A stretch of DNA of 29,431 nucleotides from positions 1 through 29,431 of IMG/VR virus record IMGVR_UViG_3300006027_000040; one strand, 5' to 3'. This DNA is from a virus. Shown one piece after another: positions 8,276 to 16,321 of the stretch. The notes beneath the pieces are model-generated. The model was given only the letters and a program-made list of their open reading frames with translations. It did no database searches and was not told the DNA's origin. Within the stretch, counting starts at the first letter, position 1, and each line of letters starts with the position of its first letter. Made by a program: the position numbers and the translations under genes.

Positions 8276-9379
8276 ATGGCAGGACCACTAAAAATAAAAG
8301 CAAGTTCGTTCCCGGTATCTGCCACATCTTTTGAAGGTGTGCAAGAACTTACAGATGTCGAAATTAAGGATACAATTGCTTATGTTTTAACAAAGAAATT
8401 TTCAGATGATACAGATGGTTCTGGGACTGCTGAATTAAACATTAACGGTTCAGGAACTTCCATAGGGACATTTACTAACAGAGAAAGACAAGAATCAGTT
8501 GGAACTCACCCAGCTGCCGGAACTCTTACATCCACAGTATACGACTTTAAACAAATTACAAGTGCAGCCACAGAGTCTGTAACAAGACCTGCTAGGTTCG
8601 ATGGTGATAGCGTTGCTGAAATGACAGACGGTGAAATAGATACTGAAATTTTAGATAAAGTTATTACAGCTATGGTAACTGATGATGAACATACAACAGG
8701 TATCTATAAAATCTCAACAACAACACCTACCTCAGGTGGGACTTGGACATCACGTTATACAATCGCAGAAACACAAGTTGACGGAACAGATGTAACATAT
8801 TACTTATGGCAAAAAACAACAGCTAATACAACTCCAGCAACAGATAGAAATTTCCCTGTTAAATTAGATGGTGAAAGTGTTGTTGAAATGACACAGGCAG
8901 AATTGGAATCATTAACAGCTGCCATGAGAAACAGAATTATTACTACAGGTGTTGGCACATATTTACTAGATAGCTCTACACCGAGTGCAACAGGAACATG
9001 GGTATTGATGGGCTCTGCAATGGACGATATTATTAAGTCTATTGCTAGCATAGCTTATGCAGGTGCTTATTCCTCAGAGTTTACAGGTTACTATATAACA
9101 AACTTTGCAGGAGCATATGCCAACAACTTTACAGGTTATTACACAGGAAACTTTACAGGAGCATACACACTTTACTATGGTGGTTATGTAGGTGGATATT
9201 TTTCCGGAACATATTCAAGTAATTTTGCAGGAACATATACTGGTTACTTTACAGGTTATTATGCTGGTGCTTTTGCAGGTAACTATACTGGTTACTTCAC
9301 TGGTTACTATGCGGGTAATACAATTCAAACAACTCCGCAAACTCAGGAAACAAAACACCTTTACATTAGAACCGCATAA
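8276..9379 (+). CDS. Tail-fibre-like protein with a C-terminal Tyr/Phe-Gly tetrapeptide repeat (367 aa)
   Basis: A strong Shine-Dalgarno sequence (AAAAGGAGATAG) precedes the ATG. Residues 1-255 contain three degenerate copies of a unit that opens with (F)-P-V-x-hydrophobic-(D/E)-G-x-(S/Q)-V/E-x-E-(M/L)-T. The copies begin near residues 13, 107 and 196, and the later ones end in a GTW strand (GGTWTSRY, ATGTWVLMG). Residues 261-348 are 22 uninterrupted tetrapeptides with an aromatic residue at position 1 (one Val) and mostly Gly at position 3 (FTGY, YTGN, FAGA and similar). A 19-residue polar tail follows. The regular repeat suggests a fibrous or beta-helical/solenoid stalk exposed on the virion. 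A fibre role is inferred from neighbours and composition; receptor binding is possible but unproven. Confidence 0.65.
   Translation: MAGPLKIKASSFPVSATSFEGVQELTDVEIKDTIAYVLTKKFSDDTDGSGTAELNINGSGTSIGTFTNRERQESVGTHPAAGTLTSTVYDFKQITSAATESVTRPARFDGDSVAEMTDGEIDTEILDKVITAMVTDDEHTTGIYKISTTTPTSGGTWTSRYTIAETQVDGTDVTYYLWQKTTANTTPATDRNFPVKLDGESVVEMTQAELESLTAAMRNRIITTGVGTYLLDSSTPSATGTWVLMGSAMDDIIKSIASIAYAGAYSSEFTGYYITNFAGAYANNFTGYYTGNFTGAYTLYYGGYVGGYFSGTYSSNFAGTYTGYFTGYYAGAFAGNYTGYFTGYYAGNTIQTTPQTQETKHLYIRTA
9056..9319 (+). repeat. 12-base tandem repeat, 22 units, coding aromatic-x-Gly-x
   Basis: In-frame units such as TTTACAGGTTAC, TATACTGGTTAC and TTTGCAGGTAAC run without a gap from 9056 to 9319. Each codes for Y/F-x-G/S/N/T-x, with one VGGY unit. 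The DNA copies differ mostly at third positions, so the protein pattern is kept more strictly than the DNA. Confidence 0.85.
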
Positions 9380-10686: not shown

Positions 10687-11319
10687 ATGAAAATAATAGA
10701 AATAGGCCCACAATTAAATAATATATTAACAACACACTCTGATTGGTTTTTCTCACAGGAAGACTATTTAGAACTGCCTGACTCGCCCTGTGAAATAAAG
10801 GAACATACACATACGATACAAAGTGCTTGTGGAGAGGAATACTTAGCAGAGGTGCAAGCTAAGGGTAGAGACCATAGGGGAGTTCCGGAAATATCTAGAG
10901 CAACTTCCTTTCAAACTGATATGTGGGTTCCAAAAAAATATAAAGAAGAATCTAAAAGAATAAACAAAGAACTATTAGATTTTTTAGGTGCAAAGTTTAG
11001 TGCTGTTCACGTATTTTACAAACCAGATTGTTTTATGTCTTGGCATTGTAATTGGGATTGTCCTGGATATAATGTGTTATTAAGTTATAATAAAACAGGC
11101 AATGGTTTCTTTAGATATCAAGACCCAATAACAAAAGAAATTGTTACTATGGAAGACACGCCTGGCTGGTCATGTAAGGTCGGTTACTTTGGTGGACATG
11201 AAGAAGAAGATAAAATATTCTGGCATACCGCAGGCTCATATGAACCAAGAATTACATTTGGTTTTGTAGTCCCACATAAAGGTATGTGGGAAATGATGAT
11301 AGAGGATATTGGAGATTAA
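10687..11319 (+). CDS. 2OG-Fe(II) oxygenase-like protein (210 aa)
   Basis: The start is set at the ATG at 10687; an in-frame TTG at 10645 would place the palindrome inside the gene. A probable double-stranded beta-helix core begins near residue 105. H120 (MSWHCNWDCPGYN), H180 (FWHTAGSYEPR) and R188 have the order and spacing of the two iron-binding histidines and the 2-oxoglutarate-binding Arg. The acidic ligand would be D124, or it may be replaced by N122 (HxN), so activity is not certain. Similar oxygenases are frequent in marine T4-like phages. The substrate is unknown; the surrounding glycosyltransferases allow the idea of hydroxylating an acceptor, which is only inference. It converges with the reverse gene at 11316, their TAA stops sharing the palindrome TTAA. 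Confidence 0.5.
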   Translation: MKIIEIGPQLNNILTTHSDWFFSQEDYLELPDSPCEIKEHTHTIQSACGEEYLAEVQAKGRDHRGVPEISRATSFQTDMWVPKKYKEESKRINKELLDFLGAKFSAVHVFYKPDCFMSWHCNWDCPGYNVLLSYNKTGNGFFRYQDPITKEIVTMEDTPGWSCKVGYFGGHEEEDKIFWHTAGSYEPRITFGFVVPHKGMWEMMIEDIGD

Positions 11320-11999
11320 CCTAACGTTTGTCTTTGTCCTATAACCATAAACCTATCATATTCTTTTTTACCGTCCCAAGAATAATAGTTTTGTTTTTTA
11401 ACACCCTCAAAGCCTATCTCATCTAAGGAGACTTGTTCTTTTAAGGCTTCTAAAGTATTAACACAATTAATACCATACATTTCTTCTACAACATTAGAAT
11501 TTTGAACAGCAAATATACTAATAGGATTTTTAGTAGTTAGTTCTTTTAATGGATACATCTGCTCTGTGTGAATACAAATAACAATGTCAACATCTATTTT
11601 ATTTAAATTGTCAAACTCAAAAGGAATGTCTAAGTTGTGGTGTCTTGTTTTAATAAATTTATCTTGTGAATAATGTTTGTGAAATAATTTACTAAGTTCA
11701 ATGGCTTCATCATCTATATCAACTAAATGTAATTGTGAAACATCTATATTTTCACATAGTAAAGGAACAAGAGGAACACCTAACCAAGAATTTAAAATTA
11801 AAACACGCATACTACCCTGTTTAAGATAATATTCATCTATATAATTTTTTAATTCTTCAACTAGCCATATGCTAGCATCCATATTATTTTGTTCAAGACT
11901 TTGCCTAAAGTCTGTAAGTTTATGAGGCATTCTACGTTCTATTACTTGGAGAGCCTCTCCCCAATATTTAAAGTTATTTAAAAAATTAAAATTTAACAT
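11316..11999 (-). CDS. Class I SAM methyltransferase-like protein (227 aa)
   Basis: The central part reads MRVLILNSWLGVPLVPLL, then LHLVDIDDEAIELSK, then DVDIVICIHTEQMYPL. This order of a beta strand with Gly loop, an acidic residue ending strand 2 and a hydrophobic strand 4 matches class I methyltransferase motifs I, II and IV. The motif I loop (NSWLG) is atypical compared with DxGxGxG, so activity is uncertain. The start at 11999 overlaps the upstream glycosyltransferase by 14 bases. A longer form from 12035, with AGGGA eight bases upstream, is also possible. It is the last gene of the reverse operon, so a sugar or protein acceptor modified by the same island is plausible. Substrate unknown. 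Confidence 0.5.
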   Translation of the reverse strand: MLNFNFLNNFKYWGEALQVIERRMPHKLTDFRQSLEQNNMDASIWLVEELKNYIDEYYLKQGSMRVLILNSWLGVPLVPLLCENIDVSQLHLVDIDDEAIELSKLFHKHYSQDKFIKTRHHNLDIPFEFDNLNKIDVDIVICIHTEQMYPLKELTTKNPISIFAVQNSNVVEEMYGINCVNTLEALKEQVSLDEIGFEGVKKQNYYSWDGKKEYDRFMVIGQRQTLG

Positions 12000-12660
12000 C
12001 TTCACTTTTTCCCATTGAATCGAATATACATACATAAGGTAAATCCCTAAACACGTGCTTAGTCGTGTCTTGAGGATATAAGTAGCCGTGATTAAAACTA
12101 TAAACCCATCCTACAGGAAAAAGTTTTTGTTTAACAACACGTCTATTATAAAAGAAGTTATCCAAACCTCTATAATACCAAAGTATCTGCTTCTTATATT
12201 TATTAAAATAATCGGTAAGTTCCTGTGTATTTAAGGAATCATTCCACCGTAATACAGAACTATTTAAATCTGTATATTTGTGAGGTATGTGTCTAGTATT
12301 TTTATATGATGCATCTAAATCGTGCCACCATGTTTTAACAAAACATAAACTATCCTCACATTCAAAGTTAGCAAAAATATCTATGTTCTTTTGAATAATA
12401 GTATCCAAGTCAAAAAACATTTTTTCGCCTTCTTGTTTTACAATCATTGGGTCAAACAAATACATCTTGTTCCACCATTTTTGTAATTTGTTATTCTCAG
12501 GAAATTCTAAAACATTTATTTCCTCAGATAAACCCGTGGCATCTTCTGTTAAACAATAAAAAGTAAAGTCTTGTGTTAAGTGTTCTTTACAAGACGCAAG
12601 GATTTGTTCTACGTGTTGAGCAGAATATTTAGTCCCCCATTTTACTGTATAAATGTTCAT
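11986..12660 (-). CDS. Glycosyltransferase-like protein, KWG family (224 aa)
   Basis: The N-terminus MNIYTVKWGTKYS matches the start motif of the other reverse-strand transferases. FYCLTED at residues 34-40, the WNKMYLF helix, and DLD at 84-86 (MFFDLDTIIQ) form a GT-A nucleotide-sugar site. LNSSVLRW, the GLDNFFY segment and VYSFNHGY are further motifs shared with the paralogues. The ATG at 12660 overlaps the preceding stop as ATGA, so translation is coupled; an in-frame TTG at 12666 is an unlikely start. No ribosome site is seen, consistent with coupling. Donor and acceptor unknown. It is the shortest form of the family here, with no extra domain. Confidence 0.65.
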   Translation of the reverse strand: MNIYTVKWGTKYSAQHVEQILASCKEHLTQDFTFYCLTEDATGLSEEINVLEFPENNKLQKWWNKMYLFDPMIVKQEGEKMFFDLDTIIQKNIDIFANFECEDSLCFVKTWWHDLDASYKNTRHIPHKYTDLNSSVLRWNDSLNTQELTDYFNKYKKQILWYYRGLDNFFYNRRVVKQKLFPVGWVYSFNHGYLYPQDTTKHVFRDLPYVCIFDSMGKSEDVKF

Positions 12661-13469
12661 CGCCAATGTGCTAATAATTCTGGGTCTGCCAATTCATCTT
12701 GTTTTGTGCTACCCCTACTACCATCTTCAAAAGGTAATAAGTCAACATTAAATACGCACAAAATACAATTAGGTCTATAAATTTTTATATTAAGGTCATC
12801 CTCTTCCCAGCTACGACCTCTATTATATGAGTATGCCATCCAACTAGGAAAGTGGTCCCAAAGTTTTTTACCATAGTCTCCCCAACGCCAACTATGATAG
12901 TTATCTGTTCCATCTGTATATGTAAACCATATTTTTTCTTGATGTTCTAAAACATCGTTCCATATAGGTTCACATTGGTCATCACTCCAAACTTGACAAC
13001 TGCCATTAGTATAGGCACCATGAGCAAGTTTAAACCTTCTGGTGCTCATAGGTTGTGGGTCCTGCCACCAACTTCTTAATTTAGTAGGCTGTTCAGTATT
13101 ATATGTAAGTATAGGTTCTAAGGAATTTTGTATAATAACATCTAAGTCAAAGAATATAAAACGACCTGTAGGTTTATCTTCTGCAAAATTGTGGGTATTA
13201 AAAACAAAAGTTTTAGGCCTATCCCAACACCTAGCCATACCATATTTAAAGTCGTCTTTTTGAAACCAGTATTTAGGATGTATGTCTGGTATATCAGGAA
13301 ATGGAATAACTTTTATATCATCATCAAGGCCTTCAGGTTTATCTGTATAACAATAAAAATGAAAATCATAATGGTCCGGAGTATTCCTTTTTGCCATATT
13401 TTTTAAACGATTAACAAAGTGTGGGCCATACTTATCGCCCCACTTAGAACATATTGCATTAACACGCAT
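12657..13469 (-). CDS. Glycosyltransferase-like protein, KWG family (270 aa)
   Basis: The start at 13469 is chosen because it places CSKWGDKYGPHFV at the N-terminus as in the paralogues, and GGAG lies nine bases upstream. An ATG at 13529 would add 20 unrelated residues inside the previous gene. DLD at residues 108-110 (FIFFDLDVIIQ) is the GT-A metal motif. HPKYWFQK and CWDRPKTFVFNTHNF are nearly the same as in the N-terminal part of the 737-aa neighbour (CWDRPKFLIFNSHHW), so the two are close duplicates. GTDNYHSW and MAYSYNRG follow as in the family. The start overlaps the preceding gene by 11 bases and the end overlaps the next by 4. Sugar and acceptor unknown. Confidence 0.65.
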   Translation of the reverse strand: MRVNAICSKWGDKYGPHFVNRLKNMAKRNTPDHYDFHFYCYTDKPEGLDDDIKVIPFPDIPDIHPKYWFQKDDFKYGMARCWDRPKTFVFNTHNFAEDKPTGRFIFFDLDVIIQNSLEPILTYNTEQPTKLRSWWQDPQPMSTRRFKLAHGAYTNGSCQVWSDDQCEPIWNDVLEHQEKIWFTYTDGTDNYHSWRWGDYGKKLWDHFPSWMAYSYNRGRSWEEDDLNIKIYRPNCILCVFNVDLLPFEDGSRGSTKQDELADPELLAHWR

Positions 13470-15672
13470 TATCACAATCTCCACATTTTGCTTTACATAT
13501 CGGTAAAGGGTTTCTACGTAAATGTTCACTTATGTTTTGAACATCACTATTATATATTACTTCATGCACAGTGATTTTTGAAGCATCACTATACTGCCAA
13601 TTATAAGGATAGTCTAAAGGATGGTATGGAAATAATTTATTTTCCCAAACATCTCTTCCTATATAGGAACATGGAAATAAATTACTCTTACTGTTTATAT
13701 AAAAATACCCGCTTTTTCTAGCATCACACCATACAGGGTCTTTATCCTTTATCTTTTTTCTTATATTTCTTAATTCAATTCCTTTTTTAAATTCTTTTAA
13801 TGTATCTAAATTAACAGGAACATTTTTATCTGTTTGAATTTGTTCCTCAAGTTTTTCTATCTTCGTCTGTTCTTCTTGTTTTACAACTTCTATTGTATCA
13901 ACATAATCTAATTTAACACCCTCTTGGAATGTTTGTAAACGCACAGAGCAATTTTGTTCTTGGAAGTAGTTACAAATACGTTCTAAATCTTCTACATGAA
14001 TAGGGTCTGTTATCTCACAAACAAACGTAACCCAGTTCACTGGATATTTATCAAAGATAGTTTTAATACTATTGAGGTTATGTTCATAGCCATCTACAAA
14101 TATATCATTAAATTCATTATTAGTATCATTTCTTTTTGTTGATAATTGTATCATTGCACCATCTGGCTTTTCATCATATAGACCTTTATAAAGGTCACTA
14201 TACTCTTCGCCATAACTTTGAAAGTATTTAAATAACGTATTGTCATCTGTGGAACCTTTTTGATTAAGGACACGTAATAATTCCTCTCGTGGCATAATGT
14301 TATACAACATACGAAATACTTCTTCATATTCCTCATCATAAAATAATTCTGTAAGATGATAAAAATAATATTTTTTATAAAGTTCTGCACATTCATCATA
14401 TGTTGCGTGCTGAAAAAATACTGAGGGTCCTTCAGTTTTATATCTTTCCATTAACCAGTCTTCTTTTTGTAAGGCAAACAACTCATCAAAGTTTTCACAT
14501 AGTTCTTCCCCTGTAAGATTCCACATCATACTTTGGTCGCCGTGTTGTATATCCCATACTTCCGGAAAGGCTTCTTTAAAAGTTAAGTGAACAGAAACAA
14601 TATCATTGTTATTATATGATTCTAATATTTGTTCATGTGCATTAAAATTTAAATACCTGTCAGTTAAACTTCTATTGTTTAACCAATCAAACTCTAACCA
14701 GTTTCTCATATGTGGAAATTGTGTATGGTTTTGTTTCCAGTCTCTACCAAATCTGGGAAACTCATCTAAATATTTTTCTGCTAATTGTGTATAATTTTCT
14801 GCATCTAATAGTTCTCTTATTTTTACTAAATCTTTTGTATTGTAATTAAAGAACTCTTTCGGTAATTTAGGTAACCACAATCTTTCAAAATCATCTTTGC
14901 CGTGCCAATGTATTAATAAGTCATAGTCCTTTTTAATCTCATGCGGTTTAAATTGTTCGCCTGCATTAGGAGTTATATCAACATTAAACAAAGCTACTTT
15001 AGCTTCCTCTCTATATAAATGAGGTCTTACATCTTTACCAAACTCTTGTCCCCTATTATAACTGTAATACCATTCCTTAGGTAGGAAGTTCCAAAAGTTT
15101 TTGCCTACTACCATGTCCTCTCTATAATAATGATAGTTGTCGCTACCTTTAAAGAAAGTTTTGAATACGGTGTCTTGGTGTTTTATTACATCATCATATA
15201 TTTTTTCACATTGATTGCCGTTCCATAACATAATACTAGAGTTATATAATGAACCTCGCATATCAGTAAACCGTCTGTTCTTTAACACAGACGGGTCTTC
15301 CCAATTAGAGTATAACATTGTGGGTTGTTCTGTGGCTATATCAAAAAACTCATCTATATTATTTTGTATAATAATATCTAAGTCCATATAACAAAATGGT
15401 CCTTTTGTTTTTAGCCAATGGTGGGAATTGAATATAAGAAACTTGGGTCTATCCCAACAATAGTTTTCCTTACCAAACCAATAGTCAGGATGCAAGGGTT
15501 TGACGTGAGGTATATTCCTTGTTATAATATGTTTATCTAATCCACTTACATCATCAGTATAACAAATAAACTTAAAACGCTTACTGTATTTACGACTGAC
15601 CATGCCGTATAAATTATTTACATAATCTGGGCTATATCTATTTCCCCACTTTATGCAAAGAAAGTGCATCAT
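13459..15672 (-). CDS. Glycosyltransferase fused to SPASM-like iron-sulfur region (737 aa)
   Basis: Residues 1 to about 260 are a complete KWG-family transferase: LCIKWGNRYSPDYV, CYTDD at 37-41, CWDRPK at 72-77, DLD at 97-99, GSDNYHYY and YYSYNRG. Residues about 260-500 are rich in aromatic and acidic residues and are not recognised. Residues about 505-600 (MIQLSTKRN, then WVTFVCEITDPIHVEDLERI) resemble the later strands of a radical-SAM barrel. The C-terminus from 648 (WCDARKSGYFYINSKSNLFP, C668, and C726, C730, C733, C737) resembles the SPASM iron-sulfur region of phage radical-SAM proteins. No CX3CX2C motif is found where a radical-SAM core would carry it. The only such spacing is at the extreme C-terminus. 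So this is a fusion with a probably degenerate or partial radical-SAM/SPASM part that may act in binding. Confidence 0.6.
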   Translation of the reverse strand: MMHFLCIKWGNRYSPDYVNNLYGMVSRKYSKRFKFICYTDDVSGLDKHIITRNIPHVKPLHPDYWFGKENYCWDRPKFLIFNSHHWLKTKGPFCYMDLDIIIQNNIDEFFDIATEQPTMLYSNWEDPSVLKNRRFTDMRGSLYNSSIMLWNGNQCEKIYDDVIKHQDTVFKTFFKGSDNYHYYREDMVVGKNFWNFLPKEWYYSYNRGQEFGKDVRPHLYREEAKVALFNVDITPNAGEQFKPHEIKKDYDLLIHWHGKDDFERLWLPKLPKEFFNYNTKDLVKIRELLDAENYTQLAEKYLDEFPRFGRDWKQNHTQFPHMRNWLEFDWLNNRSLTDRYLNFNAHEQILESYNNNDIVSVHLTFKEAFPEVWDIQHGDQSMMWNLTGEELCENFDELFALQKEDWLMERYKTEGPSVFFQHATYDECAELYKKYYFYHLTELFYDEEYEEVFRMLYNIMPREELLRVLNQKGSTDDNTLFKYFQSYGEEYSDLYKGLYDEKPDGAMIQLSTKRNDTNNEFNDIFVDGYEHNLNSIKTIFDKYPVNWVTFVCEITDPIHVEDLERICNYFQEQNCSVRLQTFQEGVKLDYVDTIEVVKQEEQTKIEKLEEQIQTDKNVPVNLDTLKEFKKGIELRNIRKKIKDKDPVWCDARKSGYFYINSKSNLFPCSYIGRDVWENKLFPYHPLDYPYNWQYSDASKITVHEVIYNSDVQNISEHLRRNPLPICKAKCGDCDNAC

Positions 15673-16321
15673 AATATTTTACATCTGCTCCTGGAAATTG
15701 TTCTTGTCCATTTAATAACGCTACTGTATATTCTGGTCTATATTTAAAACTTTGATTGTCTTCTTTAGTTGCACCATATACATAGGAATAGATAAGTTGT
15801 TCTGGGAAATGTTTGAAATCACACTCATGCCAAAAGAATCTATCATCGCCACCTACATATTTTGTCATATAGTAGTCTTCATCTTTTAAAAATTTTTCTA
15901 CAATATTTATAGCAGATCTACCTGTCCAGGATAGAACACTGGAGTTATAATTACCCAAGTAATTTAATTTAATATCTTGATTGTAAACTCTTTCGGTAGG
16001 AAAATTTTTATCTTTCCAATGAGTATAAACTATTGTATTACTATTATAACTCGATTTCCATAAGATGTCAATACTTTTTTGTATGTTTATATCCAAATCA
16101 AAATACAAAACATGGCCCAAATCTGTTTGCTGTAACATAAGAACTTTATTCCAATGCCCATACTCGGGGTCTAGCGGTCTTGTTTCTATAGCAGGGTCTA
16201 TATCAGTAGGGTCATCTGTTAAACAGACATAATTATACTTGCCATTTGTTTTTTCATAAATATCATTAACAGAGTCAGCACTAAACTTATTGCCGTATTT
16301 GATTGTTAATATAGTTTGCAT
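15638..16321 (-). CDS. Glycosyltransferase-like protein, KWG family (227 aa)
   Basis: First gene of the reverse block. The N-terminus LTIKYGNKFSADSV is the family start motif. VCLTDD lies at residues 32-37, HWNKVLML precedes the catalytic region, and DLD at 75-77 (LYFDLDINIQ) is the GT-A metal motif. NSSVLSW, GGDDRFFW and IYSYVYG follow the paralogue pattern. Its 3' end overlaps the 737-aa gene by 35 bases. Only 17 bases separate its ATG from the divergent gene at 16339, so its promoter would have to lie in that gap or inside the divergent gene. No TATAAATA box faces this way. Sugar donor and target unknown. Confidence 0.65.
   Translation of the reverse strand: MQTILTIKYGNKFSADSVNDIYEKTNGKYNYVCLTDDPTDIDPAIETRPLDPEYGHWNKVLMLQQTDLGHVLYFDLDINIQKSIDILWKSSYNSNTIVYTHWKDKNFPTERVYNQDIKLNYLGNYNSSVLSWTGRSAINIVEKFLKDEDYYMTKYVGGDDRFFWHECDFKHFPEQLIYSYVYGATKEDNQSFKYRPEYTVALLNGQEQFPGADVKYYDALSLHKVGK

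Follow-up and report, generated by a model that had tools for sequence, protein, structure and literature searches.

The locus and its gene order

The window, by which we mean the whole 29,431-nucleotide stretch of DNA analysed here, is a 29-kb fragment of a T4-like myovirus in which Pfam recognises the terminase, the sheath and the portal gp20. The terminase is closest (about 47–49%) to those of Synechococcus phages, Pelagibacter phage Mosig and Methylophilales phages. On the minus strand, at 13459..15672, lies a gene of 737 codons plus stop, whose product runs from a glycosyltransferase (GT) through a helical middle and a degenerate radical-SAM part to a SPASM/twitch domain. The gene is a single ORF in 50 complete relatives, and recurrence of the fused ORF in dozens of independent contigs rules out a sequencing error or chimera.

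The fused gene is part of a minus-strand cassette. Its start is overlapped by the glycosyltransferase gene GTa (15638..16321; phrog_1962, E 1e-7), and it is followed by GTb (12657..13529), which is 42% identical to the GT domain of the fusion and is opened by a GTG, with the true start probably further in. Next come GTc (11986..12666; phrog_1962, E 3e-10) and, last, a possible methyltransferase (11316..12035), for which the Pfam matches are weak (Spermine_synth, E 0.013; Methyltransf_12, E 0.068). On the plus strand, flanking the cassette, 8276..9379 encodes a Tyr/Thr/Ser-rich, fibre-like protein, our proposed acceptor. Its C-terminal ~100 residues are dense in YxG tetrapeptides (YTGYYAGAFAGNYTGYFTG...), 11 of them by regular expression, with up to 18 in relatives (e.g., YTGSYTGSYTGAYTGSYTG in L036), making the protein a possible target of multi-site glycosylation.

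The order fibre genes, GTa, GT/radical-SAM fusion, GTb, GTc, possible methyltransferase is kept in 22 of 22 contigs, all of which were selected for carrying the GT/radical-SAM gene. Where a contig reaches beyond the cassette, it shows a conserved ~220-residue protein (oxygenase-like by eye, with no Pfam match), a further glycosyltransferase (GTd), a small protein, a YxG-repeat fibre-like protein and large structural genes. Contigs with the minimal form of the fusion, described below, carry an extra gene between GTb and GTc (L280:6001-6645 and L276:6022-6447), either an FkbM-type methyltransferase (PF05050, E 2.6e-8) or else a cytidylyltransferase (PF01467, E 2.3e-14), in keeping with a cassette that builds glycans. 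The setting matches the host recognition cluster of pelagimyophages, described in the available text of PMC7029224 as a hypervariable region amid T4-like structural genes that holds tail fibres, several glycosyltransferases and radical-SAM gene cassettes; the same portion of that paper mentions neither a GT/radical-SAM fusion nor a dead radical-SAM domain.

Domain composition and descent of the fused protein

Residues 1–258 (14899..15672, minus strand, as are all coordinates within the gene) match phrog_1962 (E 0.002) and are paralogous to GTa, GTb and GTc. The nucleotide-sugar/metal motif DxD, here D97-L-D99 (15376..15384), is invariant across 14 aligned GTs from the cassette and its relatives. 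When the full-length model is searched with Foldseek, the top 21 PDB folds are GT6/GT8 enzymes, including BoGT6a (E 1.3e-3, prob 1.00, TM 0.38, with low pLDDT in residues 116–261) and LgtC (E 1e-2), and SuiB appears further down. The likeness to the retaining GT-A transferases of GT6/GT8 (BoGT6a, alpha-1,3-GalT, LgtC) lies in the best fold matches and the DxD; unlike them, the 737-residue protein has no GT family match in a Pfam search, and BoGT6a is metal-independent, whereas the DxD suggests a metal. By these comparisons the N-terminal domain is a glycosyltransferase, probably of GT-A type, with its DxD intact, in agreement with the initial annotation, which had called a transferase here from the sequence.

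The middle module (residues 266–479, 14236..14877) is all helical in the AlphaFold2 (AF2) model, with pLDDT mostly 70–93. It is missing from the minimal fused form of 465–467 residues and is enlarged or duplicated in forms of 835–916 residues; the length classes (465, 735–739, 835–842 and 911–916 residues) suggest gain or loss of modules. The fused form of L020 and L022, at 911 residues, has the module between the GT and the dead domain duplicated, and for L020 the duplication scores 275 against a shuffled maximum of 56.

The C-terminal part gave little to direct searches. Nothing useful came from searching the window protein by itself against Pfam, NCBIfam and the PDB sequences, or from profile searches of the C-terminus against the PDB, where no chain matches in sequence. 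The features that had prompted the initial annotation are nevertheless there: exactly six Cys lie within the final 90 residues (649, 668, 726, 730, 733 and 737), and the YIN...LFPCSYIG pattern is present (YINSKSNLFPCSYIG). In the SPASM profile search that the annotation had proposed, PF13186 does not match the window protein, but SPASM matches weakly in 21 of 32 relatives (best E 2.5e-4), and the relatives L004, L018 and L026 are just above the cut-off (L026 at 21.7 bits against 21.5).

A SPASM search of the relatives' contigs revealed intact proteins with both CNxxCxxC and a C-terminal SPASM domain, namely L296 and P0002, each on the same contig as a relative in which the two parts are separate genes (the split forms L229 and L120, respectively). 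L296 passes Pfam for Radical_SAM (PF04055, E 5e-11) and SPASM (PF13186, E 1.4e-5), and BLASTP aligns it with the dead split protein encoded on the same contig (E 3e-10) from just past the Cys motif to the C-terminus. We recruited 56 intact radical-SAM/SPASM proteins by similarity to L296 and P0002, not to the dead forms. In hhalign comparisons, the intact and split families align with E 1.9e-30, intact and fused with 7.4e-11, and split and fused with 8e-19. Taken alone, the barrel remnant (residues 498–640) matches the intact family with E 2.5e-6 (prob 88.8) and the SPASM part with E 6.8e-11 (prob 97.1). These E-values are per single comparison; six unrelated and two reversed alignments, run as controls, gave 0.05–0.6.

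Structure prediction gives the same picture. A model of residues 480–737 was built from fused sequences alone, with intact sequences excluded from the alignment; its overall quality is only fair (pLDDT 68), with the remnant mostly at 84–97 and the SPASM parts at 40–80. In the fold search, also proposed by the initial annotation, radical-SAM enzymes rank first: the eight best PDB folds are chains of SuiB, BtrN, BlsE and DesII (E 3.9e-3 to 5.6e-2, none reaching 0.001, prob mostly 0.93–1.00), and the best 15 viral matches are named radical-SAM or Fe-S proteins. The solved enzymes that resemble the C-terminal model (SuiB, BtrN, BlsE, DesII, PqqE) are active and carry a radical-SAM cluster, some with SPASM/twitch domains. 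We reject a zinc ribbon on the spacing C-x18-C-x57-C-x3-C together with the SPASM homology. The comparisons therefore show that the C-terminal domain either descends from intact phage radical-SAM/SPASM proteins or has an immediate ancestor in common with them, and we are highly confident of this domain identity.

The intact family occurs in marine and freshwater phages, with distant named relatives in Campylobacter phages F379 and CP220 and in Pelagibacter phage Mosig EXVC030M. Its members (L296, P0002/L304, L311–L393) share with the fused protein the succession β1-α1-β2-α2-β3 followed by the SPASM pattern C...PC...CX3CG; they differ in having CNxxCPxC, GxxGDP and a full barrel and in lacking a GT, on all of which the fused protein is the opposite. 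No adjoining GT-like gene was found in the flanks covered for the intact radical-SAM genes.

Features lost and retained in fused and split forms

Further scans extended the 37 whole-protein loci first found to 50 complete fused homologues, and 55 split relatives encode the two parts as separate genes. The long fused form, to which the window protein belongs, spans 735–916 residues and comprises GT, helical middle and C-terminus, and in the minimal form (L275–L281) the GT is joined directly to the C-terminus. In the split form (L026–L035, L074–L142 and others) a GT of 255–270 residues is followed by a separate ORF of ~500 residues, whose C-terminal ~290 residues are the counterpart of the fused C-terminus. 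All three have one common location and one gene order. In a GT tree rooted on GTb, the fused forms make up one clade (98/83) and the split forms another (99/98), and therefore, on this topology, a single fusion or a single fission, in either direction, separates them. The N-terminal ~200 residues of the split ~500-residue protein (L026:8749-10251, L030, L033, L035 and ~50 more) have no DxD, and against the GT alignments they reach hhalign E 7e-5 (prob 63) at best, with GTc only; they may represent an inactive GT-A domain that precedes the dead radical-SAM part in one chain, which we regard as suggestive and do not claim. A scan of genome contigs for the family found no cellular copy, and tblastn of the window protein against phage records returned only a distant GT in phage C48C1, the matches to the C-terminal part being chance ones.

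The radical-SAM remnant covers residues 500–598 (13879..14175) and consists of β1-α1-β2-α2-β3 by hhalign and AF2. The initial annotation had seen possible late barrel strands in the middle; the strands kept are in fact the early ones, and β4–β6 are deleted, so that the fused form falls short of a partial (β/α)6 barrel. Strands 4–6 are largely present in the split forms. As the annotation had noted, the core has no CX3CX2C: the motif is found in 54 of 56 intact proteins and in none of the 50 fused or 55 split forms. In its place, where intact relatives have CNxxCPxC, the window protein reads R514-N-D-T-N-N-E-F521 (14110..14133), and the fused forms at large read [R/Q/H]NDTxNxF, with N-D near-invariant and no Cys nearby, at a position for which the exact gap placement is uncertain; in the split form the loop is deleted. 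The counterpart of the SAM-binding GxxGDP ("GGEP-like") motif is C-E-I-T-D-P (residues 552–557, 14002..14019), and the two SAM-binding Gly positions, occupied in 56/56 and 55/56 intact proteins, are both 0/50 in the fused forms. With CX3CX2C, SAM-binding Gly and strands 4–6 lost, the protein is predicted neither to bind a radical-SAM cluster nor to cleave SAM, and by every criterion tested the fused C-terminus should be incapable of radical-SAM chemistry. All dead forms, fused and split, fall on one side of the branch that separates them from the intact proteins (100/99), which fits a single loss of catalysis, a reading to be taken with care given the long branches.

The SPASM/twitch-type domain (residues 641–737, 13462..13752) tells a different story. 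Four Cys are candidate ligands of an auxiliary cluster: C649 (13726..13728; 53/56 intact), C668 of the LFPC motif (13669..13671; 56/56 intact), C726 (13495..13497; 56/56 intact) and C730 (13483..13485; 56/56 intact). This twitch-like set is present in 50/50 fused forms. The first-half SPASM pattern CX9-15GX4C is found as C649-x13-S/G-x4-C668, where the G position is Gly in most relatives and Ser663 in the window protein; the full seven-Cys, two-cluster SPASM set is not, there being at most six Cys with the terminal spacing CX3CX2C. That spacing (C726/C730/C733), correctly singled out by the initial annotation as the only one in the protein, arises at the extreme C-terminus. C726 and C730 correspond to the SPASM CX3CG in each of the 56 intact proteins, and C733 (13474..13476) is an extra Cys present in 50/50 fused, 54/55 split and 0/56 intact proteins; in this alignment the terminal motif is the SPASM end plus C733, and no displaced radical-SAM motif. 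The split forms keep C649 (55/55) and mostly C668 (47/55), have His for C726 in 50/55, and retain C730 in 4/55 (missing in 51), from which a 3-Cys-1-His site may be conjectured. Since this oceanic clade has His for C726 and no C730, a [4Fe-4S] centre cannot be general across the family as a whole.

Selection on the fused gene is strong throughout. The median dN/dS is 0.035 for the GT, 0.027 for the middle, 0.041 for the barrel remnant and 0.016 for the SPASM part, showing that the C-terminal domain is under strong purifying selection, which argues against junk. It is because of this selection that we read the C-terminus as repurposed rather than decaying. The initial description, in which a sugar transferase is joined to a radical-SAM protein that is partial or repurposed, is thus borne out by profiles, folds, motif loss and selection.

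Possible roles of the dead domain

We propose a phage glycosyltransferase whose C-terminal half is a radical-SAM pseudoenzyme. The retained SPASM part, which probably carries a single Fe-S (or other metal) centre, would have a structural role and would hold either a protein acceptor or enzymes that act as partners, given that the SPASM domains of active enzymes are placed at the substrate. Sugar would then be transferred to the docked acceptor by the GT domain. The cassette most likely glycosylates the phage's own fibre proteins, encoded on both sides of it, above all the YxG-repeat protein. Modification of the host surface (LPS), proposed for such islands in PMC7029224, would explain the location equally well, and we take action on host surface glycans to be less likely than action on the phage's own fibres. 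The docking role, Fe-S occupancy and the fibre as acceptor are inferred, and for the whole account, a docking or scaffold pseudoenzyme in a fibre-glycosylating cassette, we judge the chances to be somewhat better than even. Its sharper version, in which the dead domain is a non-catalytic, metal-bearing clamp that recognises YxG-repeat fibres, be it in one chain with the GT or as a subunit of its own, is offered tentatively.

An unlikely, though reasonable, alternative is that the dead domain serves as a scaffold or activity switch, binding the adjacent GTs, or an intact radical-SAM enzyme encoded by that phage, rather than the acceptor. Two intact/degenerate pairs do share contigs (G015, G012), and in the sister clade the dead domain is a separate protein encoded beside a free GT, much like a detachable partner; however, not every carrier contig, some of which may be incomplete, shows an intact family radical-SAM protein. 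Less probable still is a redox-active auxiliary cluster that donates electrons to an intact radical-SAM enzyme or gates the GT by sensing oxygen or iron. For PapB, electron transfer between molecules has been reported, likely via an auxiliary cluster (PMC10470005), and the four ligands in 50/50 fused forms and the SPASM dN/dS of 0.016 would suit such a role, but the split clade at the same locus keeps the domain despite losing C730 and replacing C726 by His, and the cassette has no redox partner. We likewise doubt, and slightly more strongly, that the radical-SAM part is a decaying vestige beside a GT that alone matters: half of the barrel is deleted, the catalytic motifs are gone and the split clade has lost further ligands, yet dN/dS of 0.016–0.041 is comparable to or stricter than that of the GT, and the Cys and the NDTxNxFND motif are invariant in more than 30 diverse sequences. 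A still-active, non-canonical enzyme with its SAM cluster on C726/C730/C733, a spacing found in 50/50 fused forms, is very improbable, as C726 and C730 align with the SPASM CX3CG of intact proteins that have the upstream CX3CX2C too, the SAM-binding Gly and strands 4–6 are lost, and most of the split clade lacks both C726 and C730.

GT and radical-SAM/SPASM domains are known kinds; what is new is that the two are fused and that catalysis has been lost while the auxiliary site is kept. Among the open-licence papers searched, none describes a radical-SAM pseudoenzyme domain, whether alone or fused to a GT. Here, a family in abundant marine phages has shed radical chemistry and kept its auxiliary-cluster Cys under strong selection, which separates the role of an auxiliary Fe-S domain from radical catalysis. 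The roles of auxiliary clusters have been called largely enigmatic (PMC10470005). The conserved multi-enzyme cassette beside tail-fibre genes would also bear on how phages of the ocean decorate either themselves or the hosts they infect.

Radical-SAM genes also cluster in other phages. In Campylobacter phage F379 (L313, 2995-6639) and Pelagibacter phage Mosig (L314, 452-8495) they stand in adjacent pairs or threes, and those of Mosig adjoin aminotransferase, carbamoyltransferase and nitroreductase genes. A 165-kb phage contig (L069, G001:136000-150000) holds about seven within 11 kb, several of them with an N-terminal SPASM domain, and others at 28 kb and 123 kb; the intact proteins of this contig with the N-terminal SPASM were set aside as a different subtype.
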